NCBI RefSeq assembly: GCF_030067815.1
Contig: NZ_CP125968.1
Coordinates: forward strand, 3,092,001-3,156,000
Source: Sporosarcina thermotolerans
Lineage (GTDB): Bacteria > Bacillota > Bacilli > Bacillales_A > Planococcaceae
Direction of reading: 5' to 3'
DNA length: 64,000 nucleotides
Shown here piece by piece: positions 26,044-42,844 of the stretch. The notes under the pieces were generated by a model. The model saw only the letters and a list, made by a program, of their open reading frames with translations, ran no database searches and was not told the origin of the DNA. A program made the position numbers and the translations under genes. The number at the start of each line of letters is the position of its first letter. Positions within the stretch are counted from its first letter, which is position 1.

Positions 26044-26691
26044 TTATTCGCCAAAATATTTATCAACAGTCTTCAAAACATCTGATTCCATTATAACTTT
26101 TCCATACTCTTCCAAACGATGGATGGTTACTTGGGATAATGAACCGTATTCCGAAACGATACTACAATAATCCAATTTAGCATCGTCATCCATTTCAGAT
26201 TCATCATAGATCACATGCATGTAGAATTTATTTTCGAATGAATAGAGAGATGATTGAACTGCATAAGCGGGAATTTTCTTAGCTAACGGAATGAGATTTT
26301 CGAAATCATCAAACACGAACATATCGGAAGTCCATACTACCGGCTCATCGTTTAATTCATTCATGAGCTGTTCAGGGTTTGTGAATAAACTGGGATCAGG
26401 GTCAAAGTGCTTATCAGACTCATCCACACCAAAATCAATTTCGTTATTTTCCATTTGTGCACGTGTCACTGTAACTTCGATTCCATTATTCATCGCATGG
26501 ACTTGAATCCACAATGGACCTTCAACTTCAAATTCGGTCTCATCATTGATTTCATCCATCATCTCCCAGAAGAGCTCTTCACTTTTATCTCGATTATACC
26601 AGACTTCTTCACGAGTAAAGCCACGTTCTTCTATGTCTATATACGATAAATAAAACTTTACTGTATTATCATTGATACGTTCTATTTCCAT
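26044..26691 (-). CDS. mecA: Adaptor protein MecA
   Basis: A 215-residue adaptor that targets ComK and other proteins to ClpCP and helps assemble ClpC. The N-terminal target-binding domain starts MEIERINDNTVKFYLSYIDI and includes GFTREEVWYNRDKSEELFWEMMDE. An acidic linker (DFGVDESDKHFDPDPS) leads to a C-terminal ClpC-binding domain (FEDFENLIPLAKKIP-like region to DVLKTVDKYFGE). It is intact and lies between spxA and coiA as in Bacillus. Confidence 0.94.
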   Translation of the reverse strand: MEIERINDNTVKFYLSYIDIEERGFTREEVWYNRDKSEELFWEMMDEINDETEFEVEGPLWIQVHAMNNGIEVTVTRAQMENNEIDFGVDESDKHFDPDPSLFTNPEQLMNELNDEPVVWTSDMFVFDDFENLIPLAKKIPAYAVQSSLYSFENKFYMHVIYDESEMDDDAKLDYCSIVSEYGSLSQVTIHRLEEYGKVIMESDVLKTVDKYFGE

Positions 26692-26862
26692 CCCTTTTCT
26701 CTCCCTTCCTTACAAATAGGTATATGCCTATTTTTTTATTTTCGCGATTAACCTGCAATGCTTATACTTACTATATGAGCGTCTACGAAGTTTTGAAAGG
26801 GTTACCGCTCAAGACTTCTATTGATAATAGCATTGTAGGGAACATCAGCACATATTGCAATA

Positions 26863-27054
26863 GACAAAAGCGTAGGGCGCCTTCTTAGTCCCGACAGTTT
26901 GGGAAAAGAAGACGTGCTCGTAACGCTGCGCTATTACTCGCAAAAGCCGTTCTTCGTAACGGCTTTCGCTGGGAGACATGCCACAACAAAGGCGCTTTTT
27001 GCCTTTTTGGCATGTCTGAAGCGACTCGAGGGACTGGCGCCCGTAGCTGGATGA
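26863..27054 (+). repeat. Dispersed repeat family 2, copy 1
   Basis: A 192-bp GC-rich block begins GACAAAAGCGTAGGGCGCC and ends GGCGCCCGTAGCTGGATGA, so its ends are imperfect inverted repeats. Inside are hairpins AAAGCCGTT/AACGGCTTT and AGACATGCCA(CAA)CAAAGGC / GCCTTTTTGGCATGTCT, next to CTGAAGCGACTCG. It is directly followed by copy 2. Reading frames crossing it are artefacts. The flanking stretch 26692-26862 holds the mecA promoter region and a small palindrome (AATAGGTATATGCCTATT), and otherwise nothing that I can name. Confidence 0.9.
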
Positions 27055-27176
27055 GACAAAAGCGTAGGGCGCCTTCTTAGAGGCGACAGGCATAAGGCGA
27101 AGCTGCGAAGTGGCGTTTTTTGCCACATAGCAGATTTGACTTATGACCCGAGCCTCTGGCGCCCGTAGCTGGATGC
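27055..27176 (+). repeat. Dispersed repeat family 2, copy 2 (tandem)
   Basis: A 122-bp block with the same ends as copy 1 (GACAAAAGCGTAGGGCGCC ... CTGGCGCCCGTAGCTGGATG) but a different interior. It has a GTGGC/GCCAC hairpin and CATAAG/CTTATG flanks. It is head-to-tail with copy 1 and upstream of the spxA terminator. Confidence 0.9.
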
Positions 27177-27197
27177 TAAACCCTGAAGGGAAATTAA

Positions 27198-27244
27198 AAA
27201 GCCGATAGGATTTGGCGAATGCCCGTTATCTCCCTATCAGCTTT
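27198..27244 (-). terminator. Intrinsic terminator of spxA
   Basis: The arms AAAGCCGATAGG and CCTATCAGCTTT form a stem with a long loop; a T run follows on the minus strand. Confidence 0.7.
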
Positions 27245-27257
27245 ACTATGTCTTAAA

Positions 27258-27656
27258 TTAGTTAACCATGCGCCGCGCTTCAAGCAGCTGATAGGCCCTT
27301 ACTTTACGAGGTAGGAAACGTCTGATTTCATCTTCATTATACCCTACCTGAAGCCTTTTTTCATCAAGAATGATTGGTCTTCTTAAGAGGCCTGGATGTT
27401 CCTGTATTAATTCGTATAAGCGTTGAAGTGGAAGGCTTTCCACATCTACATTAAGTTTTTGGAAGATTTTTGATCGGGTTGAAATAATTTCATCTGTCCC
27501 GTCTTCTGTCATTCGGAGAATTTGTTTGATTTCACCAATATTCAATGGCTCCGAGAAAATATTACGTTCCGTATACGGTATTTCATGCTCTTCCAGCCAC
27601 GCCTTAGCTTTTCTACATGATGTGCAACTAGGTGAGGTAAATAATGTAACTCCCAT
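27258..27656 (-). CDS. spxA: Transcriptional regulator Spx
   Basis: A 132-residue ArsC-like regulator that binds the RNA polymerase alpha C-terminal domain under disulfide stress. The redox switch CTSC is at residues 11-14 and the basic loop [23 protein letters not shown] follows. The end [15 protein letters not shown] is typical for the Spx degradation tail, though it is VN rather than the LAN of Bacillus subtilis. It is monocistronic here, with its own terminator. Its adaptor SpxH is encoded about 5 kb away. Confidence 0.95.
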
Positions 27657-27732
27657 TCGCTGACACTTCCTTTCAGTCGGCTTGCTTGTTTTATTTAAAT
27701 TAGAATGATTTTAAAGTAATTTGCTATCTTCT

Positions 27733-27761
27733 ATTATACACATATTCATTCTCAATGAATA
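27733..27761 (-). promoter_or_regulatory. spxA promoter with an overlapping palindrome
   Basis: A TATAAT -10 box lies at 27738-27733 (minus strand). A perfect 7-bp dyad, ATTCATT-CTC-AATGAAT (27744-27760), fills the spacer and touches the -35 region. The Bacillus subtilis spx promoter is repressed by PerR and YodB, so a repressor site here is plausible. The dyad does not closely match the PerR consensus. The remaining stretch from 27761 to 28008 shows no gene. Confidence 0.45.
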
Positions 27762-28008
27762 CACTTTTTCAAAAAAAAGTAATACAGATTGTTTCTTTGT
27801 CACAGTTCCGCAATAATGTAAGGGTTACAGCTCCTTTGGATTTGTACTTTCACACTTCTATACTGTTATACCCGATAGCATAAAAGTTTAAACATCATTC
27901 ACATAAAAAAATCCATTTCTCATTTAGGAATGCTTGATTGAAAAACAAATTCCTTTACTAATAGTACGAACTCACCCCAAAAAGGTTTCAAAATCCAGGC
28001 ATTTTTTC

Positions 28009-28022
28009 AAACAAAAACGTAG
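28009..28022 (+). repeat. Left terminal inverted repeat of the transposon
   Basis: AAACAAAAACGTAG, identical in inverted orientation to 34783-34796. The match continues imperfectly inward for about 40 bases. Confidence 0.7.
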
Positions 28023-28105
28023 AGGTACCCTGTAATATTAAAGACAAGTAATTGTACATGATGACTTATCTCGTCGTGGCTTGTTTATAATGTTACACAC
28101 ATTAT

Positions 28106-28150
28106 AAAAATGCACATTACTAAAAGTAAATTTTAGTAATGTGCATTTTT
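28106..28150. terminator. Perfect 20-bp hairpin at the transposon left end
   Basis: AAAAATGCACATTACTAAAA and its exact complement are separated by GTAAA, with flanking A and T tracts, so it can terminate on both strands. It would insulate tnpABC from outside transcription. It could also be a recombinase or structural site. Confidence 0.75.
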
Positions 28151-28257
28151 ATTTTGGCTAACATTTCCTCATAGTTTTATTAAAAAGTTAAACATTTTAC
28201 ACTTACGAAGAAAAGTATTAGATTAGAACTAACGTTCCTTATTGGAGGGGTTAATAA

Positions 28258-29592
28258 TTGTATTGGTATGAGTATTGTCCGAAACATGTTGAAAGTAAAT
28301 ATCAACTGTTAGTATTTAAAGATAACAAGCCCTTTCTACCTTTGACAGATTATTACCAAGATTGTTTAGGGAGAATTGATAAGAGTTCTGCAACATCTTA
28401 TTTAAAGTGCTTATTACCCTTTTTTAAGTGGATAGAGGAAAAAAGTAACTATCAGGGAAATCGAGTGCAATGGAATGAATCGGAAGGAAAGATACGCGTA
28501 GCTGTTGAGGATTATTTACAGCATGAAATGAGCTGTAAAGTTTGAGATAAAGATTCATTTCGTTTTGTGAATTTAACAAATAAAAGCCCTACTACCATTA
28601 GTCGTTTTTTATCGGCACTAAAGTCATTTTATAAGTCTATGGTTCGCTTAAACTACTATCCACATCATAACCCTTTAATTGATGGGCAAGCTATTCTACA
28701 TAGCTATAAAGAAGAAGTAAGAGGTGTTCGAGAAGATAAACCTAGAATGCCCTCAGTTGCAGGAACAGAAGATCCTGTCACTCACCGAAGATTAACAGAT
28801 TCCTATTTTAAAATCATCAATGAAGAATGGCAACCTCAAATTATTGATGATATGAATTTACCTTATCAAGTTTATCAAGCAGGGAAAAAGGTAAATTGGT
28901 CGCAACGTGAAATGATTATAGCTCGTATGTTATTCGAAACAGGAGCAAGGGCATCGGAAATTATTGAACTCACCATTGGAGATTATCGTTAGCGTAGAAG
29001 TCACCAAGAGGTTAGTACGTTTAACAAAGGGAGTCATGGTAGGAAGATCAAGTTCTTACGCTTTAGTAAAGATACTGTCAAGCGATTGTTTCACTATATA
29101 GACACCGAGAGAAAATCCTATGATGAAAATCATTTAGGATTTGAACAATTGCCTGACGATGCACCAATCTTTTTATCTGCAAATGGAAAAGCATTTACTT
29201 ATCATGCTTGGTATTATCATTGGAATCGAGCAATGAAAGTTAATGAATTAAGTTTAAACCCGCATAAAGCAAGACATTGGTTTGTTACTTCTCGCCTAAG
29301 AGAAATTTATAATATATCCAAAAGTGAAGCTGAAATTCAACAGCGTAAAAATGAATTAATTAAATATATGAAATGGAAAAATCCCGATACCATGAATATA
29401 TATGAACATCATTTTGACGAAGCAAAACATCGAGAAGCCCATGAAAACATGCTGGTACAAATGGCACAAAGAGAGGAAGATTACACTAAGCAGTATAAAT
29501 CTTCTGGAAAATCAAAGTTGGCAGTCATTGAAACAACCAAGATTGAACTAGTCGATGAAGATTTACAAGAGTTATTAGAAGGGTTGGAATGA
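28258..29592 (+). pseudogene. tnpA: tnpA, Tn554-family tyrosine recombinase with two nonsense codons
   Basis: One continuous frame from a TTG start (site GGAGGGG) encodes a TnpA-like tyrosine recombinase of about 444 codons. It contains in-frame TGA at 28543-28545 and TAG at 28990-28992. Catalytic elements are still readable: GARASEII (first Arg), HKARHWF (HxxR) and the Tyr in MNIYEHHF. The stops are substitutions rather than indels, unlike the frameshifts elsewhere in the window, so I take the gene as truly decayed. Internal restarts at GTG 28567 or later could give fragments. It overlaps tnpB by four bases. Confidence 0.8.
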
Positions 29593-31736
29593 ATTTGCCT
29601 GACGCAACACAACAAAGACCAGCAACGGTATGGTATGATAAATGGCTTGGAAAAATGGATACAAAGCTAATGTGCCTGAAAAATGGTCGAAGTGAGTTTT
29701 TAATCGACAAAGTAGATGAACGGATTCTTAAATACATTAATAATAATTGCTTAAATTTTGATTGGAAGAATCACCTTTTATTGATTATATTAATCGAAAC
29801 AGCTCAAAATAAAGATGCCGGAACTATTAAAGTAATCATCGGGACCTTAAGCACACGTCTTAAAGATATTTTCAATCATTTTAACATTACTAGATTTTTA
29901 GACTTCGATCCGAATGTTCATTTATATGGATATTTAAAAGGTGAGATTTTTCCTAACGATTCCAACAACAAAAGAAGAAGATTATTGGGAAATTATAGTG
30001 GAGCCGAGTGCACTACAAAAAAATGGGTTCATAACAACTTATCTTTTGAAGAACAAGATTATTATAAACAGTTCCTACTGCAACCTATTCCGTTTGATTC
30101 ATGCGATTTTTCATTTCAAAGGTTAGCAATAGAACAAGCTCAAACTATTCGTAAAGATGAAACAGATGCTATTGTTCCAATGCTTCCAACGATACGTGCA
30201 GAAGCAAATTTACGATGGAATCAGATGAAAAGACTACGTGATGCCTTTCATCAACAAATACAGGAGGTAGAAACTAAATCGTTATCACTACCAATTGAAT
30301 TTTTTTATGATGAACCCGAACGCATCGGAGAAAGATTTCATTTTCGTTTATGGGATAAACCATCCTTTGTATTGCATCACCAAACACAATTTTCAGAAGC
30401 TATAATAAAACAAGCAACACAGAAGAAAGTAACTTATTCTGACGAGAAAAATGCTTATTTCCTTGAGTTTATTCGTACGGAATCAATAGAGGACAATTCA
30501 GAAGGAGAAGGTCTTTGGTTTAATGAATTGATTGGATTTAATGTTCTCGGAAATTGGAATAAAAATAGACCAATTGAAGAACATGAGCGTATTTTAAAGT
30601 TTTTATCTTTATGGGGCTACGAACAAAAATATGAGCAAAAGCCCAAACCATTTTTTTCTCAACATAAAGGTATTTTAACACCGACAACTTTTGTTACTTT
30701 GCACAAAGACAAAGCACAAGGTTTATTAATTGATGTTGAGCCATTTTACGCTGCTTGTACATTTGGTTTATTAGCTATCGACATTCTAACAACCACTGGT
30801 GCAAGAATTAATGAATTACTTCAAATTAATAATACGAAAGAATGTATCCTTATAAAAAAAGTTAAAGAGAAGTTGCATTTCTCATTTAAAGCTATCCCTA
30901 AAGGACGAGATTCTTTAGAAGAGTTTTATATAAGCAAGCAGACTATGGAGCATCTTCAAACCGTAGCAAGGCTGTTAAAAGAGCATTATGCTGTCAAGAA
31001 AATTCCGAGTAATTTATATAGATATGAGAGAAAGCATCTTTTCACTAAGCCTTTGCCCTATTATTTTCAATACGAAGGTAAGGCAATGAAAGTGGATTCT
31101 ATATACAGTTCCATTCGATTCCTCCTTCATGGATTGATTTTGGAAACACAAAGCGGTAAGCCTGTAACAATCAAGACGCATCTTTTACGTCATGCTTTTG
31201 CAACAGAAGCAGTCCAGCGACAAAACGTGAATGTTGATATTGTCGCCAAGCTGTTACATCAAAGGGATTTGAATGTAACGGCTTATTACTCCGCACCAAC
31301 CCCATCACAAATATCTGAATCAATAAGTGAATTACATGATGTCATTTCAAGCTATGTCGATATTGATGATGCGTATTTAAGAAGCCCCAAAGAGTTGCAA
31401 CAGCAATTTGATGGACACGCTGAAAAAGTTGGGGTATACAACAAAGTATTAGGTGGTACTTGCGTGACCGATTTCGTGTGTCCAACTAAAATGCAATGTC
31501 TAGGTTGTAAAGCAAAAGTACCTGAACCAGACCAAGAGGATGAACTTTTAGAAGTTATTCAATTATCAAAGGATATGGAGAAACGCTTCAAGCAAATGGG
31601 GTTAGAGGTTGAAGTTCGTAAAGCAAAAGAAATGGCGAAGCAAGCTAAGATCGAACTAAAAGAGATTGACTTGATAAAACAATATAGAGAGGAACGTCAT
31701 TATGAACCAACCACCAAGCTCAATCCATTCAGATAA
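29589..31736 (+). CDS. tnpB: TnpB, Tn554-family tyrosine recombinase
   Basis: A 715-residue, intact tyrosine recombinase. The catalytic domain is in the last third: GARINELL (Arg I), HLLRHAFATEAV (HxxRH) and LLHQRDLNVTAYYSAP (His and nucleophile Tyr). After this come a Cys cluster, GGTCVTDFVCPTKMQCLGC, which may bind zinc, and a charged helical tail. The ATG overlaps the tnpA stop and the end overlaps tnpC, as in Tn554, where TnpA, TnpB and TnpC act together in site-specific transposition. Confidence 0.9.
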   Translation: MNLPDATQQRPATVWYDKWLGKMDTKLMCLKNGRSEFLIDKVDERILKYINNNCLNFDWKNHLLLIILIETAQNKDAGTIKVIIGTLSTRLKDIFNHFNITRFLDFDPNVHLYGYLKGEIFPNDSNNKRRRLLGNYSGAECTTKKWVHNNLSFEEQDYYKQFLLQPIPFDSCDFSFQRLAIEQAQTIRKDETDAIVPMLPTIRAEANLRWNQMKRLRDAFHQQIQEVETKSLSLPIEFFYDEPERIGERFHFRLWDKPSFVLHHQTQFSEAIIKQATQKKVTYSDEKNAYFLEFIRTESIEDNSEGEGLWFNELIGFNVLGNWNKNRPIEEHERILKFLSLWGYEQKYEQKPKPFFSQHKGILTPTTFVTLHKDKAQGLLIDVEPFYAACTFGLLAIDILTTTGARINELLQINNTKECILIKKVKEKLHFSFKAIPKGRDSLEEFYISKQTMEHLQTVARLLKEHYAVKKIPSNLYRYERKHLFTKPLPYYFQYEGKAMKVDSIYSSIRFLLHGLILETQSGKPVTIKTHLLRHAFATEAVQRQNVNVDIVAKLLHQRDLNVTAYYSAPTPSQISESISELHDVISSYVDIDDAYLRSPKELQQQFDGHAEKVGVYNKVLGGTCVTDFVCPTKMQCLGCKAKVPEPDQEDELLEVIQLSKDMEKRFKQMGLEVEVRKAKEMAKQAKIELKEIDLIKQYREERHYEPTTKLNPFR

Positions 31737-32175
31737 GCGGAAATGGCTTGATAAAGTGCATCAGCAACGTAAAGACCGTTCACTTACTATTGGTATTCAA
31801 ACGATTGATTTTCTCGTAGAACAAGGGATTCCCGTAACCTATCACAACATTAGTGAGCATTCAAAAGCATTTGATGAAAAAGGAAAAGGCATCCATCAAA
31901 ATACGATTAAACGCAATGAGGAACTACATTCTTATTATCAAAAGCATAGCAGAACGTATAAAGTAAAAAATACGCGTAAAAAACCTGTAATGCCCTCTAC
32001 ATTTGACGAAGCATCTTTAAGAAGGAATTCGTCTGAACGTGATGTAAACATCGCCAAAAAGAGGTATATGCAGCTTTCGAAAGAGGACTTGGTGAATAGA
32101 TTAATAGCGGTTGAAAAATACGTTGCAGAAAACCAAGAGCGATGGGTAACTAATCAATTTAAGCAGTTCAAATAG
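31702..32175 (+). CDS. tnpC: TnpC, Tn554-family accessory transposition protein
   Basis: A 157-residue basic protein like TnpC of Tn554 (DUF6262 type), which influences transposition efficiency and orientation. It has a helical N-terminal DNA-binding-like part (VTYHNISEHSKAFDEKGKGIHQNTIKRNEELHSYY) and a C-terminal coiled stretch (SKEDLVNRLIAVEKYVAENQERW). It starts inside the end of tnpB at 31702, after a GAGAGGAACG site. A strong terminator follows. Confidence 0.85.
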   Translation: MNQPPSSIHSDKRKWLDKVHQQRKDRSLTIGIQTIDFLVEQGIPVTYHNISEHSKAFDEKGKGIHQNTIKRNEELHSYYQKHSRTYKVKNTRKKPVMPSTFDEASLRRNSSERDVNIAKKRYMQLSKEDLVNRLIAVEKYVAENQERWVTNQFKQFK

Positions 32176-32193
32176 ATAATTAATAAGATACAA

Positions 32194-32232
32194 AAAATAG
32201 CCTTGTTAAACTACTTTTAACAAGGCTATTTT
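32194..32232. terminator. Bidirectional terminator between tnpC and the cargo genes
   Basis: A 17-bp stem, AAAATAGCCTTGTTAAA/TTTAACAAGGCTATTTT, with a five-base loop and A/T tracts on both sides. It serves tnpABC on the plus strand and the cargo operon on the minus strand. Confidence 0.92.
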
Positions 32233-32382
32233 AGAAACTAGATGACAACATTTTGTTGTTTTAAAATCATAGATACCCGTGAGTTCACTTTCTGCTCATA
32301 TCAATAAAATTATAGGCACAAACCATTGCTTTTGCAATATTCTTTGGCAAAAGAACGATTATGTGCGCTACTGAAACCTGAA

Positions 32383-32916
32383 TTATTTCGCTGAGAGATT
32401 TATTATTTTCTTAATTAATCTTATTTGACCTCGGTGATTTAATTCATCCTCAAATACATGGAACCATTTGAAATAGTTATTCGTAGGTTTTCCTCCCCAA
32501 AATGGAGTTTGTTCGAACAACCATGAATCCTGCAATGTTCGGAATTCCTCAATTGTCTTTTTTCTTGTTTGTTCCAATTGCTCCAAGTAGAATTCAATCG
32601 AATTCCCTTTAATTTGTTCTTGTGCTGCCTTTCCGAGATCCATTGCCGGATTCAGCATTTGTATATCCTCTTCCGTAAATTCACGTTTCTCAAATGTATC
32701 GATTTGATATGCTTTTTCAAGTGACGCCATATGAGCGATCAGCATGCCGATGGAATTTGCTTTTTCGTTAATTAAAAAATCTAATTGCTCGACTGATAAA
32801 TTCATTATTTCCGCTAATGTTGTCTCTCTTGTATAATTCATCATAGATATTAGCTTGCTGAATTCCAAACTTAAACCCTCTTTTTTATCGATTAAAAATA
32901 ACCTTTGATTTCCCAT
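32383..32916 (-). CDS. DinB-family protein (transposon cargo)
   Basis: A 177-residue four-helix-bundle protein of the DinB/YfiT superfamily. Candidate metal ligands are His in MLIAHMASLEKAY, WFHVFEDELNHRGQIR (two His). Some DinB-fold proteins are bacillithiol S-transferases that act in detoxification; others have unknown roles. The start at 32916 has an AGAAGGAAG site. It follows the RsgA-like GTPase gene by 125 bases on the same strand, so both may be expressed from the leader-controlled promoter at 34450-34478. The function is inferred from fold only. Confidence 0.75.
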   Translation of the reverse strand: MGNQRLFLIDKKEGLSLEFSKLISMMNYTRETTLAEIMNLSVEQLDFLINEKANSIGMLIAHMASLEKAYQIDTFEKREFTEEDIQMLNPAMDLGKAAQEQIKGNSIEFYLEQLEQTRKKTIEEFRTLQDSWLFEQTPFWGGKPTNNYFKWFHVFEDELNHRGQIRLIKKIINLSAK

Positions 32917-33041
32917 TTTATCTTCCTTCTATGAATGTTGCGGTTTTGGTATTTCCCGCAATTATTCTAATTATTTTTTATAACTAATGATTTAACCATT
33001 GAACATTTTGAAGAGAAGCTTACTAACTTTACTCGCCTTGA

Positions 33042-34061
33042 TTAATTTTTCGAGTAAAACTTTTTTTGCTTTTTCAATTGCTTCATATTCTCATATTTCA
33101 GTTGACCTCTTAACTTTTTTTCATAAAGAGAGTATCTTGATAGTTGTTCTGTAGATAATTCTCCATCCTCAACAGCACGAATAACAGCACATCCTGATTC
33201 ATGATTGTGAGTACAATCGTTAAACTTGCAATACTTAGCGAGATCTTGAATTTCTGCGAATAGAATGTTCCCATCAACCTCATTAGTTGTACTAATCGTT
33301 TTAAACCCAGGACTGTCAATTAAAAGTGAATCAGTTTCTTCTAAATACAACATCTTAGTTACCGTTGTTGTATGCTTACCTTTCCCATCAGTTCTGACTG
33401 AATTTGTATCTTCACTGCGATTATTTGTAAGATAGTTTATTAATGTAGATTTTCCTACTCCTGATGCCCCGATAAACATCGCTGTTTTCCCGCTATATAA
33501 AGTATCTTTAACCAGTTGTATCGATTCTCCTTGATGCATACTGACTGATGTTATTTTTACTTTTGGGTAATTTGAATGAATCGTCTCAATGATTTCTTTT
33601 GTCTCTTCAATGTAATCTGCTTTTGATATTAAAATATTCAATTCTAGTTTCTCTTGATTAAATGTCATCAGATAACGTTCTAATTTTGATAAAGTAAATC
33701 GTTGGTCAGCAGCTATTAAAATATAGAGTTGATCAACGTTTGTCGCAAGAATCTGTTCATATGATTTTACATGGTAGCTCTTAGCAGCATGACTGGAAGC
33801 TTTAGAAATAACATTTTTTCGTTGTAGTAGCTCTTCCAAATAATAATCATCATCTTGCCAATTAAACATAACAAAGTCACCGACATAAAAATCCTTATCT
33901 GTAAGTTTATGTGCAACTTTGACTCGAGGTATTATTTTATCGATTGTAGCAATTGTATATAAATGATTATTTTTTTGAATGACACGAGCAATGTCGCTAT
34001 GTGAATTTATAGGGTTTTCATTTACATACTTCTTAATTCCAAAGTTTTTTTGTTCAAACAT
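33042..34061 (-). CDS. RsgA-like circularly permuted GTPase (transposon cargo)
   Basis: A 339-residue RsgA paralogue. RsgA is a ribosome-associated GTPase that checks 30S maturation and releases RbfA. The parts are in the permuted order: an OB-like N-terminus (ARVIQKNNHLYTI...VGDFVMF), G4 (LISKADY), G1 (GASGVGKST), G3 (DSPGF), and a zinc knuckle CKFNDCTHNHESGC near the end. I start at ATG 34061 (site GAGAGGGAAG); the frame is open upstream to 34118 without a good site. Carriage on a transposon behind a leader peptide and attenuator is unusual and suggests inducible ribosome-related protection. Confidence 0.82.
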   Translation of the reverse strand: MFEQKNFGIKKYVNENPINSHSDIARVIQKNNHLYTIATIDKIIPRVKVAHKLTDKDFYVGDFVMFNWQDDDYYLEELLQRKNVISKASSHAAKSYHVKSYEQILATNVDQLYILIAADQRFTLSKLERYLMTFNQEKLELNILISKADYIEETKEIIETIHSNYPKVKITSVSMHQGESIQLVKDTLYSGKTAMFIGASGVGKSTLINYLTNNRSEDTNSVRTDGKGKHTTTVTKMLYLEETDSLLIDSPGFKTISTTNEVDGNILFAEIQDLAKYCKFNDCTHNHESGCAVIRAVEDGELSTEQLSRYSLYEKKLRGQLKYENMKQLKKQKKFYSKN

Positions 34062-34162
34062 AGAACTTCCCTCTCTATAACTTAATTTTTTGATCTTGCC
34101 TTCTTTAAAGTCCAACAATTGATAATGAATAAAGTGTTTTGATAAAAATTATTCCACCATAA

Positions 34163-34183
34163 TTAATCCATTTGGTCACCTCC
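34163..34183 (-). promoter_or_regulatory. Near-perfect Shine-Dalgarno followed by a two-codon ORF
   Basis: GGAGGTGACC at 34183-34174 is followed by ATG-GAT-TAA at 34171-34163, the strongest ribosome site in the cargo leader region but with only Met-Asp before the stop. ATG-GTG-GAA-TAA comes right after. The sequence just before it (ATTCCC..GGTTA.CTTC) can pair imperfectly with part of the 24-codon leader ORF. It could be a ribosome-parking element, or the relic of a longer GTPase N-terminus. Confidence 0.45.
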
Positions 34184-34242
34184 ATTTTTGAAGTAACCAA
34201 GGGAATCAAATATTTGTTAGCATAGCTGTATAAAATAACAAA

Positions 34243-34277
34243 AAGCCACAGGGTTATATAAAATAACCCTGTGGCTT
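34243..34277 (-). terminator. Attenuator-like terminator upstream of the RsgA-like gene
   Basis: A 15-bp perfect stem, AAGCCACAGGGTTAT/ATAACCCTGTGGCTT, followed on the minus strand by TTTTTGTTATTTT. It lies between the leader ORF and the GTPase gene and downstream of their promoter, so read-through would be needed to express the GTPase. Confidence 0.85.
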
Positions 34278-34344
34278 AAGTGTTAATTCAAAATAGAAAT
34301 GCTTCTAACAAGTCGCACATCATGATGTGATGGTAAACCATTTT

Positions 34345-34419
34345 TCAATATAAATCCGAATGAGTGAGACGCAAAAATTCAATTCCCAAGGTTAACTTCA
34401 TTAAGTTTATGAATTGCAT
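34345..34419 (-). CDS. Predicted 24-residue leader peptide
   Basis: The ATG at 34419 has a strong AAAGGGAGTGAG site and encodes MQFINLMKLT-GIEFLRLTHSDLY-like residues (24 codons) ending at TGA 34347-34345. It lies about 25 bases after a good promoter, and an intrinsic terminator and the RsgA-like gene follow. Short leader ORFs in this position control antibiotic-resistance genes such as erm and several ABC-F genes by ribosome stalling. Here the control is inferred from layout only. Confidence 0.6.
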   Translation of the reverse strand: MQFINLMKLTLGIEFLRLTHSDLY

Positions 34420-34449
34420 AATCTCACTCCCTTTCCATACATTAAGAAA

Positions 34450-34478
34450 ATAATACCACATTAACAATCAGAATTCAA
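34450..34478 (-). promoter_or_regulatory. Sigma-A promoter of the cargo leader transcript
   Basis: Read on the minus strand: -35 TTGAAT, a 17-base spacer, and -10 TATTAT. It gives a transcript start about 25 bases before the leader ORF and a 5' leader of almost 390 nt before the GTPase gene. Confidence 0.75.
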
Positions 34479-34782
34479 CAACTTTTTAATCATCTTACTA
34501 GATTGTCCTTTAGTTCAAATACAATTCCGCAATATGGCCCGTTTCTTGAAGAGCTATCTATATCATAGTACCACATTTACCCATTTAGTAGGCATCAAAA
34601 AAGTGCTACATACTAGATGTTTCTACTACATGTTATGGCCCGATACGACATAAAAGAGATCGTCAATGACAATCTCCTGTTGTTCAATTAATATAGCTCA
34701 TATAATGTTGCACATTCTATGAAGGATGCTGATGTATCAAGAGGAACATGTTATCTCTTGACTTTTAATAAAAACTTACCCC
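34479..34782. other. Non-coding right end of the transposon
   Basis: About 300 AT-rich bases without a credible gene. Visible structures are small inverted repeats GAGATCGTC/GACAATCTC (about 34650) and TCAAGAG/CTCTTGA (34738-34763), and TATAATGTTGCACA (34702-34715), which resembles TATAATGTTACACA near the left end (28086-28099) in the same orientation. These may be recombinase binding sites. Confidence 0.5.
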
Positions 34783-34796
34783 CTACGTTTTTGTTT
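34783..34796 (-). repeat. Right terminal inverted repeat of the transposon
   Basis: On the minus strand this reads AAACAAAAACGTAG, identical to the left end. Its first two bases are the last two of the TAA stop of the DUF4015 gene. Confidence 0.7.
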
Positions 34797-36000
34797 ACGG
34801 CGTATAATCTACGCCTTCTGTATATGAATTACCGGCATTCCATAGTAGGAATTCGTTAATACCGTTCTCATTCAAGGCTTTAATCTGTGCCTCGACCTCA
34901 TTTTTACCATAACGAAGATAATTCCCTGCACCTAACCAAGGTGCACTGAAATCTTGAAGCCAAGGACGAGAAATAGGTGGATTCTCAAGTTCCCCTAATT
35001 TAGCATTTTCAACCTTCGCATATTCAGTCACAAGGCGATATGGTTCAAGGTCGGGTTTCGAAATTCCGAAATAGGAGGTCCAGTGGCTTGGGTAAATCAT
35101 AGACGAAATGACATCCACATTCTCGGAAATCTTAGAAAAGTTTTGTCCGATACCTGGTGCTTCCGGCAATGTTGCAGAGTAGCCGAAAATATCTACCGAT
35201 ACATCAACGTCGTACGGCTTTAACTTTTCACGTGCATAGGCAACAAAATCCGTAACTGCCTCAACCCTTCGTTGCACAGTGTCAAGCTCCGAATCCTCGT
35301 AGTCTTCCATCGTATATCCAAGTATATCAGCTCTATTTTCAAAGCCTTCCGGGAAACGAACATAGTCAAACTGGATCTCTTGGAACCCCATCTTCGCAGC
35401 TTCTATCGCAATTTCAACGTTATGATCCCAGACTTCTTTCATAAACGGATTGACAAATGATTCTTTCCTTCCGTTCTTCCATACCTGATCCCCATCCATG
35501 AAGGATAGATCCGGTCGTTGTTCTGCGAGGACACTATCTTTGAACACAACAATTCTTGCAATTGGGTACACCCCCTCCGCTTCAAGCGTCTTGAGCATAT
35601 TTTGAGGGTCCTTAATATACGGTTTTCCAATTCCGAGATCAAACAACGGGGAAACTTCCTGAGGCTTATATGTCAAATTCCCGAAATCGTCTTTGATGTC
35701 AATAACCATTGCATTCAAATCCGTTGAACCAATCAGATTCAACAATCTTTCGAATCGGGCTCCCCCGGCAGAATGTCCAGTGACGTAAATTCCTCTAACC
35801 GCATCCGGGTATTCAAAGACTAACCCGGAATCAAAACGGTATAATTTTGAGCTCGCTACAATCGCTTCATCCATTTCTTCAAATCCATATGTACGTTCCG
35901 CAAAGTCAATATCTTTTATAGTTTCATCGGCATAGACAATCGTTGGAATCGCAACTGCAGCCGCAAGCATTAGCGAACTCAAAAACTTCATTTTCTTCAT
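34795..36000 (-). CDS. Secreted putative glycoside hydrolase (DUF4015)
   Basis: A 401-residue protein with a cleavable signal peptide (KFLSSLMLAAAVAIPTIVYADE) and a TIM-barrel-like putative glycosidase domain of the DUF4015 type. Family landmarks are GIYVTGHSAGG, VIDIKDDFGNLTY, PIARIVVFKDSVLAEQRPDL, EIQFDYVRFPEG (probable active-site region) and SSMIYPSHW. I use ATG 36000 (site AGAGGAT) instead of 36021. The substrate is unknown; it may act on cell-wall or exopolysaccharide glycans. The transposon begins exactly at its stop codon, so it may have lost its native terminator. Confidence 0.8.
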   Translation of the reverse strand: MKKMKFLSSLMLAAAVAIPTIVYADETIKDIDFAERTYGFEEMDEAIVASSKLYRFDSGLVFEYPDAVRGIYVTGHSAGGARFERLLNLIGSTDLNAMVIDIKDDFGNLTYKPQEVSPLFDLGIGKPYIKDPQNMLKTLEAEGVYPIARIVVFKDSVLAEQRPDLSFMDGDQVWKNGRKESFVNPFMKEVWDHNVEIAIEAAKMGFQEIQFDYVRFPEGFENRADILGYTMEDYEDSELDTVQRRVEAVTDFVAYAREKLKPYDVDVSVDIFGYSATLPEAPGIGQNFSKISENVDVISSMIYPSHWTSYFGISKPDLEPYRLVTEYAKVENAKLGELENPPISRPWLQDFSAPWLGAGNYLRYGKNEVEAQIKALNENGINEFLLWNAGNSYTEGVDYTP

Positions 36001-36131
36001 AGGGCACATCCTCTCTTTCATTTATTCTACCAAAGCAAAAATCTATTGAATAGAGCAAGTCTCCTATTCCCGTAATTAATTGTCGAAAAACCTCAGTTCC
36101 TCTGTTTTTTTGTCTATTCAAGTTTTCCCTA

Positions 36132-36160
36132 TTGCATTCTGTACAAAGTCGTACTATACT
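36132..36160 (+). promoter_or_regulatory. Sigma-A promoter of trpS
   Basis: TTGCAT, a 17-base spacer, and TATACT. It lies about 20 bases before the T-box leader. Confidence 0.8.
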
Positions 36161-36181
36161 TTTGACACTAATACTTTTAAA

Positions 36182-36430
36182 AAGCAAAGACGGAAAGAGT
36201 ACTCTTGTATCGACTTATCAGAGAGCCTGTGGCTGGTGTAAACAGGCAAGACGTACAAGAAGAATTGGATTCCTGAGCTTGATTGGCGAATGAGGGTTTG
36301 CTTTGTCTCCCAGTAGTCAATCACGTCTCCCGCGTTATGGGATTTGAGTGGCCTTTTACGGGCTAATTCGGGTGGTACCACGGTTGATCAACATCAGTCG
36401 TCCCTTTTTAGGGATGACTGGTGTTTTTTT
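36182..36430 (+). promoter_or_regulatory. T-box riboswitch (tRNA-Trp) of trpS
   Basis: A T-box leader, which senses uncharged tRNA and lets transcription continue. Stem I landmarks are visible (AGAGAGCC, GTGGCTGGTG, AAACAGGC), as is a plausible TGG specifier in GAATTGGATTCC. The T-box sequence AATTCGGGTGGTACCACGG is at 36365-36383, and the terminator CAGTCGTCCC/GGGATGACTG with seven T is at 36395-36430. The gene controlled is trpS, which agrees with a Trp (TGG) specifier. Confidence 0.92.
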
Positions 36431-36475
36431 GTTTTATATTATTATTTATTTTCATTAGGTATTGGTATTTATTTG

Positions 36476-36596
36476 ACTGGAGCGAAAGGCGGCGACTCCT
36501 GGGGGATTAGCGGGACAGGTGAGACCCCGCAGTGTCGCGTAGCGACCGAGGAGGCTCACCGCCCGCCCCCCGGAAAGCGTCCGTCTGTAGCGGAAG
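36476..36596 (+). repeat. Dispersed repeat family 1, copy 2, in the trpS leader
   Basis: About 120 bp, almost identical to copy 1 (GGCGGCGACTCCTGGGGG ... GACAGGTGAGACCCCGCAG ... GAGGCTCACCGCCCGC ... GGAAAGCGTCCG). It sits between the T-box terminator and the trpS Shine-Dalgarno, so it must be transcribed as part of the mRNA 5' region whenever trpS is expressed. Confidence 0.92.
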
Positions 36597-36606
36597 TCTA
36601 TTTTAA

Positions 36607-37780
<1,174 letters not shown>

Positions 37781-40685: not shown

Positions 40686-42826
40686 TCACTTCTTCTCAAC
40701 CAATAGTTTCCCATCATCCATTGATAACACTAATCTCTCCCCATCTTTCAGCTCACCTTTAATGATCTCCTTGGCGACTACTGTTTCAACATGGCGTTGG
40801 ATAAACCGTTTCAACGGTCTTGCCCCGAAGTCCGCGTCTGTCCCTTCCTTTACAATCCAATCAAGGACATCATCGTTATATTCCAAGCCAACTTCCTGCT
40901 CATCCAACCGTTTGACGAGATTCTCTAACATTTTTTTCGCTATCAAACGGAATGAGTCCCCTGATAAAGAATGGAAGATGATAATATCGTCCATCCGATT
41001 CAACAGCTCAGGTTTAAAGTGGCGGCGCAATTCAGCCATAACTAAGTCTTCCGCCGCATGATCTTCCGAATCGAATTTTCCCCCCAACAAGAAGGCTGAA
41101 CCAATATTAGATGTCATGATTACAACTGTATTCGTAAAATTAACGAGTCTTCCCTGGCTATCGGTAATACGGCCATCATCCAGGACTTGAAGCAAAATAT
41201 TCGATACATCAGGATGCGCCTTCTCGATTTCATCAAGCAGTACGACTGAATACGGGTTCCGGCGCACCGCTTCCGTCAACTGGCCTCCCTCTTCATAGCC
41301 TATATAACCAGGAGGTGCACCGACGAGTCGGGATACACTGTGTTTCTCCATATACTCAGACATGTCGATTCGGATAAAATGATCTTCTGAATCGAAAATG
41401 CACGCAGCGAGAGTCTTCGCCAGTTCTGTCTTTCCGACTCCAGTCGGTCCAAGAAATAGAAATGATCCTATTGGTTTATCCGGATCCTTAATGCCTGCCC
41501 TCGCACGCCAAACAGCTTCTGTGACAAGCTGAACAGCATTATCTTGTCCGATAACCCGTTTTTCCAACGTTTCACCAAGACGTAGCAATTTCTCCCTTTC
41601 ACCTTCAACAAGTTTCGTAACCGGAATTCCTGTCCAGCGGGCAACGATCATCGCGATTTCATCTTCCGTCACTTCTTCGCGAAGCAAACGATTTTCAGAA
41701 CTGTTGGCTAACGGTCCTTCCATTGCCTGCAGTTCTTTTTCCAATTCAGGAATCTTGCCGTACTGCAACTCTGCAGCTTTATTCAAATCGAAGCGGTTCT
41801 GCGCATCTTCCAACTCTCGGCGATATCTGTCCAGCTCCTCGCGTTTCGATTGGATTTCGCGCAGTGTTTCCTTTTCTTTATTCCATTGCTGACGCATATC
41901 GGATGACGAATCCTTTAATTCCTGTAACTCCGTACGTAATGCTTCCAAGCGGGTTTGGCTGATTGCATCCTTCTCTTTCCGCAATGCCTGTTCCTCAATT
42001 TCAAGCTGCATAATCCGACGTGTGACCGAATCGAGCTCCTGAGGCATCGAGTCAATTTCCGTCCGAATCATGGCGCTCGCCTCATCAATGAGGTCGATTG
42101 CCTTGTCCGGCATGAAACGTTCTGTTAAATAACGATCCGACAATGTAGCTGCAGCGACTATTGCACGGTCATGGATACGAACACCATGGTGTAGCTCAAA
42201 TCTTTCTTTCAAACCGCGTAAAATCGAAATTGTATCTTCCACCGACGGTTCACGCACGAGCACCTGTTGGAAACGGCGTTCGAGTGCGGGATCCTTTTCT
42301 ATATACATTCGGTACTCGTCAAGTGTCGTCGCTCCGATGCAATACAACTCACCGCGTGCAAGCATCGGTTTCAACATATTCCCCGCATCCATCGCACCTT
42401 CAGTTTTCCGGCGCCTACAATCGTATGGATTTCGTCGATGAAAAGAATAATTTCCCCATCACTATCCTTCACCTGCTTCAAGACACCCTTTAAACGCTCT
42501 TCGAACTCGCCACGGTATTTGGCACCTGCGATGAGGGAGCTCATATCCAATTCAAAAATTTGCCGATCTTTCAATCCCTCAGGCACATCGCCTTTGACGA
42601 TTCGTTGAGCAAGGCCTTCGACAATTGCCGTCTTCCCTACTCCGGGCTCCCCAATAAGGACAGGATTGTTTTTTGTTTTCCTAGATAAAATTCGGATGAC
42701 ATTTCGGATTTCTTCGTCACGTCCAATAACGGGATCCATCTTTCCGTTCTTCACATCTTCAACAAGATTTCGACCAAATTGCTCAAGTGGTGTACGTTGA
42801 TCTTCTTGCATGCCGCCCATTCTCAT
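40686..42826 (-). CDS. clpB: ClpB-type disaggregase lacking the N-domain, frameshifted
   Basis: A Hsp100 AAA+ protein of about 713 residues after repair. Nucleotide-binding domain 1 has [17 protein letters not shown] and [16 protein letters not shown] long coiled middle domain ([20 protein letters not shown] to [16 protein letters not shown]) marks it as ClpB and not ClpC or ClpE. Domain 2 has [15 protein letters not shown] and [14 protein letters not shown]. The usual N-terminal Clp-N domain (about 145 residues) is absent. The gene really begins here: ATG 42826 has a GAGGTGA site and a CtsR operator upstream. One extra base in TTTT at 42404-42407 repairs the frame ([13 protein letters not shown]). 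Confidence 0.88.
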
Positions 42827-42844
42827 ATACATTCACCTCATTAG

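Follow-up and report, generated by a model that had tools for sequence, protein, structure and literature searches.

A putative ribosome-dependent transcription attenuator in front of an accessory RsgA-type GTPase operon of Sporosarcina thermotolerans

The DNA analyzed here, referred to as the window, is a stretch of 64,000 nucleotides from Sporosarcina thermotolerans (contig NZ_CP125968.1, positions 3,092,001 to 3,156,000). Its minus strand carries a two-gene operon preceded by a structured leader with a small open reading frame (ORF), and all features of operon and leader described below lie on this strand. The first gene (33042..34061) encodes an RsgA-like GTPase of 339 aa, here called RsgA3, which matched the Pfam model RsgA_GTPase (1e-38) and TIGR00157. 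The second gene (32383..32916) encodes a DinB/mycothiol-S-transferase-like protein (Pfam MST, 8.8e-13). The terminator scan found no terminator between the two genes, and a terminator-like hairpin (32194..32232), scored on the minus strand, follows the operon; it is nearly symmetrical and may equally serve a tnpC-like gene on the opposite strand. PADLOC matches were weak (E 2e-4 and 4e-4). Genes that serve the cell during a block of its ribosomes are often preceded by leader-ORF attenuators. The RsgA3 and DinB-like operon is probably controlled by a ribosome-dependent transcription attenuator of this kind, likely one that senses ribosome stalling.

In the direction of transcription, the leader begins with a promoter-like site found by pattern scan, TTGAAT-17-TATTAT with a TG (34450..34478). 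It is followed by the Shine-Dalgarno segment of the leader ORF (34423..34434, AAAGGGAGTGAG), which by computed pairing is also the 5' arm of an anti-antiterminator, and by the leader ORF itself (34345..34419), whose 24 codons encode MQFINLMKLTLGIEFLRLTHSDLY and end in a stop. Two further predicted pairing partners lie inside the ORF: the antiterminator strand (34378..34402, AATGAAGTTAACCTTGGGAATTGAA), whose predicted target is the terminator 5' half (34257..34280), and the anti-antiterminator 3' arm, which occupies the last codons (34362..34370, GTCTCACTC). The intrinsic terminator (34243..34277) consists of a perfect stem of 15 pairs and a T tract, and was the sole terminator detected by the scan in 33001-34800 (shuffles 0.5 ± 0.8). 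As a whole, the 382-nt leader folded with a z-score of -4.86, and 0 of 100 shuffles were as stable. The 17-nt-spacer promoter, the 24-codon ORF with its strong ribosome site and the perfect 15-bp terminator with T tract had been named in an original prediction made from the sequence alone, and each could be located as described.

Orthologs of RsgA3, 75-76% identical, were found in only two further genomes, another member of the genus (G183) and Ornithinibacillus halophilus. The search of 261 genomes of the window's own family returned the own genome and G183 only, and the O. halophilus locus was the single match of a pattern-based scan of genome contigs. Among 398 genomes of the class the window gene stood alone at ortholog level, and in the family of genome G400 the one match among 159 genomes was, judged by coordinates, the O. 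halophilus genome already counted. At E 0.1 nothing related to the leader DNA was present in the plasmid and phage collections; RsgA-like plasmid proteins (184 records) were all less than 60% identical, and none of the viral contigs encoded a relative.

The order leader ORF, terminator, GTPase and DinB-like gene is common to the window, G183 and O. halophilus, while the next upstream genes look different in each locus (ORF lists, inspected by eye). The leader ORF, whose absence from homologous elements the original prediction had named as speaking against it, occupies the same place in all three. Its first half reads NLMK[LI]TLG, in frame in each locus; this need not mean selection on the peptide, because the RNA there doubles as the antiterminator strand. 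In O. halophilus the second half is out of frame, yet according to our reading of the alignment the RNA CTCACTCA, which is complementary to the leader's own ribosome site, is unchanged. Likewise, GGGAGTGAG in the Shine-Dalgarno segment did not vary across the three loci.

The middle of the leader ORF paired with the 5' half of the terminator at -16.0 kcal/mol in the window and at -18.2 kcal/mol in O. halophilus, with 0 of 100 shuffles as good in either case. This pairing, absent from the original prediction, emerged in the follow-up. The prediction had instead paired the leader ORF with the region in front of the GTPase; such complementarity exists (ATTCCC..GGTTACTTC, 34190..34206), but it is modest when compared with shuffles and does not appear to be the chief part of the switch. 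The focused segment scored -25.5 in the window, -22.6 in G183 and -22.0 in O. halophilus, against shuffle results of 8/200 and 14/200, 14/200 and 6/200, and 43/200 and 90/200, respectively, O. halophilus being the weakest. Part of the same region is predicted to fold into a post-terminator hairpin around a Shine-Dalgarno-like GGAGGTGA (34172..34200), at -14.6 kcal/mol in the window, -10.6 in G183 and -4.6 in O. halophilus. Behind it stands a start-stop mini-ORF, ATG-GAT-TAA (34171-34163), which is present in two of the three loci and missing in G183. No role was found for hairpin and mini-ORF, because the GTPase starts ~100-120 nt downstream. A second candidate leader peptide directly before the GTPase (MEVTKW...) was dropped, as it was not kept in G183 or O. 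halophilus.

The effect of a ribosome was modeled by constrained folding, in which a 33-nt footprint was held single-stranded at 11 positions per locus, alongside a fold with no ribosome, and the RNA ended at the 5' arm of the terminator. Without a ribosome, the anti-antiterminator between the Shine-Dalgarno and the ORF end formed (11.7 pairs in the window) and the antiterminator hardly at all. With the ribosome on codons 1-5 of the window leader, the antiterminator gained 9.4-12.3 pairs and the anti-antiterminator practically disappeared; the same swap was obtained with the ribosome at codons 1-4 in G183 and at codons 1-2 in O. halophilus. In these models the switch appears to be built from terminator, antiterminator and anti-antiterminator, all inside the leader. 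Conservation, mutually exclusive pairings and the dependence of folding on ribosome position support the proposal of the original prediction that a leader-ORF attenuator of the erm and ABC-F kind precedes an RsgA-type gene, and on comparison and folding we hold with high confidence that the leader is an attenuator switch.

The following sequence of events would be consistent with these results. When no ribosome is stalled, the leader Shine-Dalgarno would pair with the last part of its ORF, so that the terminator would form and transcription would stop ~200 nt in. A ribosome held on the first few codons would cover the Shine-Dalgarno; the middle of the ORF, thus freed, could bind the terminator 5' half, which would let RNA polymerase continue into the operon. 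The signal would most likely be a ribosome arrested during initiation or early in elongation, as happens with ribosome-targeting drugs, and the GTPase, acting on either the small subunit or stalled ribosomes, would then keep translation going. Here we infer translation of the leader, read-through in cells and a protective role of the product, and a drug-type signal inducing a protective factor is the version that we moderately favor.

The same genome encodes a second accessory paralog, RsgA2, which is also located behind a leader ORF and a terminator (leader at L010, 690-880). At the thresholds used, RsgA2 occurred in 115 of 151 genomes of the family and in at least 181 of 388 genomes of the class; all 41 family genomes searched for canonical rsgA had it. 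The family comprised 117 RsgA2 places, of which 110 were fetched and seven left out, and L057, at a contig end, was too short, which left 109 for analysis. From other families, 65 RsgA2 places among the matches listed were used, 60 hand-picked to spread over families and 5 accompanying loci. One of these, L149, entered the other-family counts of leader plus terminator and of ribosome-site complementarity on the wrong strand, and was corrected for the count of ORFs given below.

Leader ORF and terminator together stood upstream of 96 of the 109 family RsgA2 genes, compared with 0/30 canonical rsgA genes and 5/174 shuffled upstream sequences; for a terminator alone the corresponding counts were 107/109, 1/30 and 35/174. 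The RsgA2 genes of other families had a terminator in 35/65 and both parts in 19/65 cases (counts that include the misread L149). Under stricter rules both parts were recognized in 86 loci, 83 of RsgA2 and the 3 of the window type. Complementarity at ≤5/100 shuffles was detected between leader ORF and terminator 5' half in 78 of these, and between ribosome site and ORF end in 64. A leader and its own terminator paired on average at -24.0 kcal/mol, whereas 4634 swapped pairs averaged -13.1; in most loci the two sides have changed together. Related RsgA2 leaders of equal length were compared in 332 pairs. Differences were most frequent at codons 3-8 and 20-24 and least frequent at codons 9-19, and those in codons 3-8 were mostly non-synonymous. 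Such variation fits a putative RNA switch that senses the position of the ribosome, not a special arrest peptide.

An ORF that is led by a ribosome site and stops 25-180 nt ahead of the gene was present in 42/65 RsgA2 loci of other families (23/65 had no such ORF in this interval), 68/109 of the window's family, 1/30 canonical and 4/174 shuffled sequences. Pairing of this ORF with downstream sequence at ≤5/100 shuffles was found in 26/65, 64/109, 0/30 and 1/174, respectively. In 12/65 other-family loci, a count that again includes the misread L149, the ribosome-site region of the gene itself also had a segment with significant complementarity to it. Several of the other-family leaders, judging from ten loci viewed by eye, are apparently translational attenuators. 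A leader ORF and complementary segments before the ribosome site were also seen by eye at a Listeria rsgA2-like gene in a contig deposited as phage (L151, 700-1060); this record may be host DNA.

Several observations weigh against a stall-sensing attenuator or against its proposed purpose. Promoter-like sites occurred in the region at chance level (10 found, 9.2 ± 3.1 in shuffles); the TTGA and an AT-rich -10 (TATTAT, TAATAT, TATAAT) do, however, align across the three loci, which lends some weight to the window site. In G183 the leader ORF-terminator pairing (-12.3 kcal/mol) did not exceed shuffles, 16 of 100 of which were as good. When partners were swapped, foreign terminators paired as well with the leader in 5/75 cases for the window and in 21/68 for G183, compared with 0/71 for O. 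halophilus, and in only 55 of the 86 stricter loci did the own pair outscore at least 95% of the foreign pairs. At equilibrium the complete terminator beats the antiterminator in all three loci, so the choice between them must fall during transcription, and according to the folding the antiterminator would also be released by a ribosome that has reached codon 20, close to the stop. Only three loci carry the RsgA3-type GTPase, and the RsgA2 counts are not independent, because the loci are related; grouping the leaders by similarity proved too coarse for a count of independent families. Canonical rsgA is a weak control: these genes lie inside an operon, which partly explains the 0/30, and two of three viewed by eye start a few bases after another operon gene. 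The shuffled upstream sequences are free of this flaw. As to the purpose, loss of rsgA in E. coli lowered the gentamicin MIC (minimum inhibitory concentration) 2- to 4-fold, which speaks for a protective role, but that of cefotaxime, which is not a ribosome drug, fell 32-fold (PMC10295648); for S. aureus, tolerance to some drugs is recorded as an effect of losing rsgA (PMC10117726).

The alternative that survives best keeps the switch and replaces the signal: instead of drugs, the leader would gauge how well the cell can initiate translation or how sound its 30S subunits are (cold, ppGpp, assembly defects). RsgA is a 30S maturation factor (PMC9032327), which would suit such a role. Because codons 3-8 of the RsgA2 leaders vary strongly, the peptide being made seems to matter little there and the step sensed may be initiation, and in the folding antitermination was favored when the ribosome occupied the very first codons. 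A rare operon on an inserted segment, with a DinB/thiol-transferase-like partner, fits external drug stress better, as does the WblC precedent of Streptomyces discussed below, and we regard an internal signal as improbable. An attenuator of the trp/his-leader type, with stalling at codons for a scarce amino acid, would also combine leader ORF, terminator and alternative pairings. The leader has no run of any one residue, though, RsgA2 leader peptides differ freely at the early codons, and the regulated genes do not look biosynthetic, so that amino acid starvation is a very unlikely signal. The strong RNA structure, together with the post-terminator hairpin in three loci, could also belong to a riboswitch-like element that binds a ligand or protein, the ORF being incidental; but the ORF contributes its Shine-Dalgarno and its codons to the pairings, its first half is in frame in all three loci, and Rfam at curated cut-offs returned no family at the window leader or at the leaders of ten loci tried, which makes this still harder to believe. 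That the terminator merely ends an upstream transcript, with a chance ORF and another promoter for the GTPase, agrees with the chance frequency of promoter-like sites and is nevertheless next to incredible given that ORF and terminator are kept in 3/3 loci with differing upstream genes and that shuffled sequences seldom reproduce the layout (5/174).

RsgA3 itself scored well above the family cut-offs (PF03193, 133 bits vs 30; TIGR00157, 141 bits vs 100). Its motifs are in circularly permuted order, with KAD at 147-149 followed by the P-loop GASGVGKST at 198-206 and DSPGF at 249-253, and it has a zinc motif C-x4-C-x-H-x5-C whose residues C278, C283, H285 and C291 are invariant in all three RsgA3 proteins. 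We take the permuted GTPase motifs and the zinc motif to be hallmarks of the RsgA/YjeQ family. Two of the nine P-loop positions vary among the three proteins. With regard to an N-terminal OB fold, another feature of the family, 12 solved sequences matched, of which 1u0l aligned from profile position 39, ten from ~105 and one from 225. RsgA3 is not part of the canonical group, as eight canonical RsgA proteins clustered at 100/100 without the three RsgA3, which were joined at 100/99; 13 RsgA2 proteins came together weakly (55/95). The attachment of RsgA3 differed between two trees. A first tree, in which L149 still had the wrong strand and a distant streptococcal sequence was included, placed RsgA3 beside the canonical group, whereas a second, with L149 corrected and the distant sequence left out, placed it with RsgA2. 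RsgA2 of the same genome is 35% identical to RsgA3 over residues 60-318.

Other members of the wider family were seen along the way. In two class genomes, streptococcal by eye, a distant RsgA-like gene with no visible leader (L015, 4231-5187; L016, 4775-5470, the latter frame apparently interrupted) stands behind two ABC-transporter-like genes and one methyltransferase-like gene, and is another accessory RsgA in what may be an export or resistance setting. The canonical rsgA of the window's genome (G000:C1:2028548-2029395; L011, 1049-1944) is split by a frame change in this assembly. Frame breaks were also noticed by eye in PASTA-domain-like frames before canonical rsgA and, within the window, in a ClpC-like gene (40686-42832) and in a tnpA-like gene (28258-29592); given a completeness of 83%, these look like assembly error rather than decay.

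The operon and its leader lie on one inserted segment of ~6.7 kb (28033..34778) together with tnpA-like, tnpB-like and tnpC-like genes, as can be concluded from flanks that adjoin in relatives. In 18 of the 19 relatives' loci that were read (L244-L262) both flanks are on one piece, 7 to ~400 bases apart; L244, for example, matches window 26262-28025, continues with 7 bases and resumes at 34776-37595. The "transposon" label given to the GTPase gene by the original prediction was thus apt. The ends of the insertion are approximate and by eye fall in the loop of a terminator-like hairpin between an spx-like and a glycosidase-like gene, a hairpin that is uninterrupted in L244. G183 has this insertion site empty (L253) and its operon copy elsewhere. 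Two recombinase-type genes of the segment were recognized by weak matches below the cut-offs, the small third ORF had no match and the tnpA-like frame is interrupted. The segment may be Tn554-like, transposons of that kind having consecutive tnpA, tnpB (both tyrosine recombinases) and tnpC genes, but none of the family models assigned this name. Inspection by eye of the ORFs in 13 and 15 kb surrounding the G183 and O. halophilus operons revealed no recombinase genes, although no family-model search was made there. Two RNA elements were also recorded, a T-box leader (36178-36408; Rfam RF00230, 125 bits) upstream of an apparent tryptophanyl-tRNA synthetase gene (36619-37605), and a group I intron in O. 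halophilus (L008, 3171-3494; Rfam RF00028, 78 bits).

Attenuators before two accessory RsgA paralogs, and before 0/30 canonical genes, provide a hypothesis for the extra RsgA genes of many Bacilli and suggest that, in addition to ABC-F, Erm and HflXr, there is an inducible response directed at the 30S subunit. Accessory RsgA proteins (RsgA2 in much of Bacilli, RsgA3 in the window) may form an unrecognized class of small-subunit GTPases induced by ribosome stalling, under leader-ORF attenuators that switched between transcriptional and translational forms with the same logic; this wider idea we favor by a narrow measure. Both proteins may repair or protect the small subunit, a role analogous to that of ABC-F and HflXr on the 30S side. 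In the open-access literature, covered by titles, abstract starts and passages and with subscription papers outside this scope, no report of a leader-ORF attenuator before an rsgA gene was found. Switches of this type have been described before, whereas the family of clients, how widely it extends and the apparent alternation of transcriptional with translational forms seem to be new.

Among known systems, the vmlR gene of Bacillus subtilis, which encodes an ABC-F protein, has an upstream ORF within an anti-antiterminator hairpin, an antiterminator and an intrinsic terminator, and a post-terminator hairpin that in read-through RNA can be opened by pairing with an upstream part (PMC9226507). 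The window leader resembles it in having leader ORF, anti-antiterminator, antiterminator, terminator and a further post-terminator hairpin, but its ORF has 24 codons instead of three and its client is an RsgA-type GTPase. The complementarity between the leader ORF and the region in front of the GTPase is similar to the second, translational layer of vmlR, but the window hairpin does not contain the ribosome site of the GTPase, which starts ~100-120 nt further on. For the ABC-F leaders of another study, start-codon stalling under lincomycin-type drugs is described (PMC12421871).

Translational attenuators of the ermC type appear to be matched by some RsgA2 leaders outside the window's family, in which the leader end is complementary to an intermediate segment and this in turn to the ribosome site of the gene. 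The window leader differs from them in using a terminator, and its client is a GTPase, not a methyltransferase. HflX acts on 70S and 50S particles, in contrast to the 30S for RsgA. In Listeria monocytogenes, hflXr with rli80 is controlled by attenuation through anti-antiterminator, antiterminator, terminator and a small ORF, and its product is a ribosome-binding GTPase (PMC6310831). The window thus shares with it the attenuator parts and the kind of client, whereas the hflXr leader ORF has 14 codons and an RLR motif that is absent from the window leader.

For the client, the closest parallel is in Streptomyces coelicolor, where SCO6149/SCO5211 (RsgA/EngC) are among the paralog pairs of which one member is activated by WblC under tetracycline; from the sentence order this member is SCO6149 (PMC7157823). 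Like RsgA3, it is an accessory RsgA paralog; it is listed as activated beside a non-activated one, although according to the passages its induction runs via a transcription factor, itself under control of an upstream ORF, and not via a leader of its own. The Streptomyces regulon independently supports the view that accessory RsgA genes can answer translation stress.

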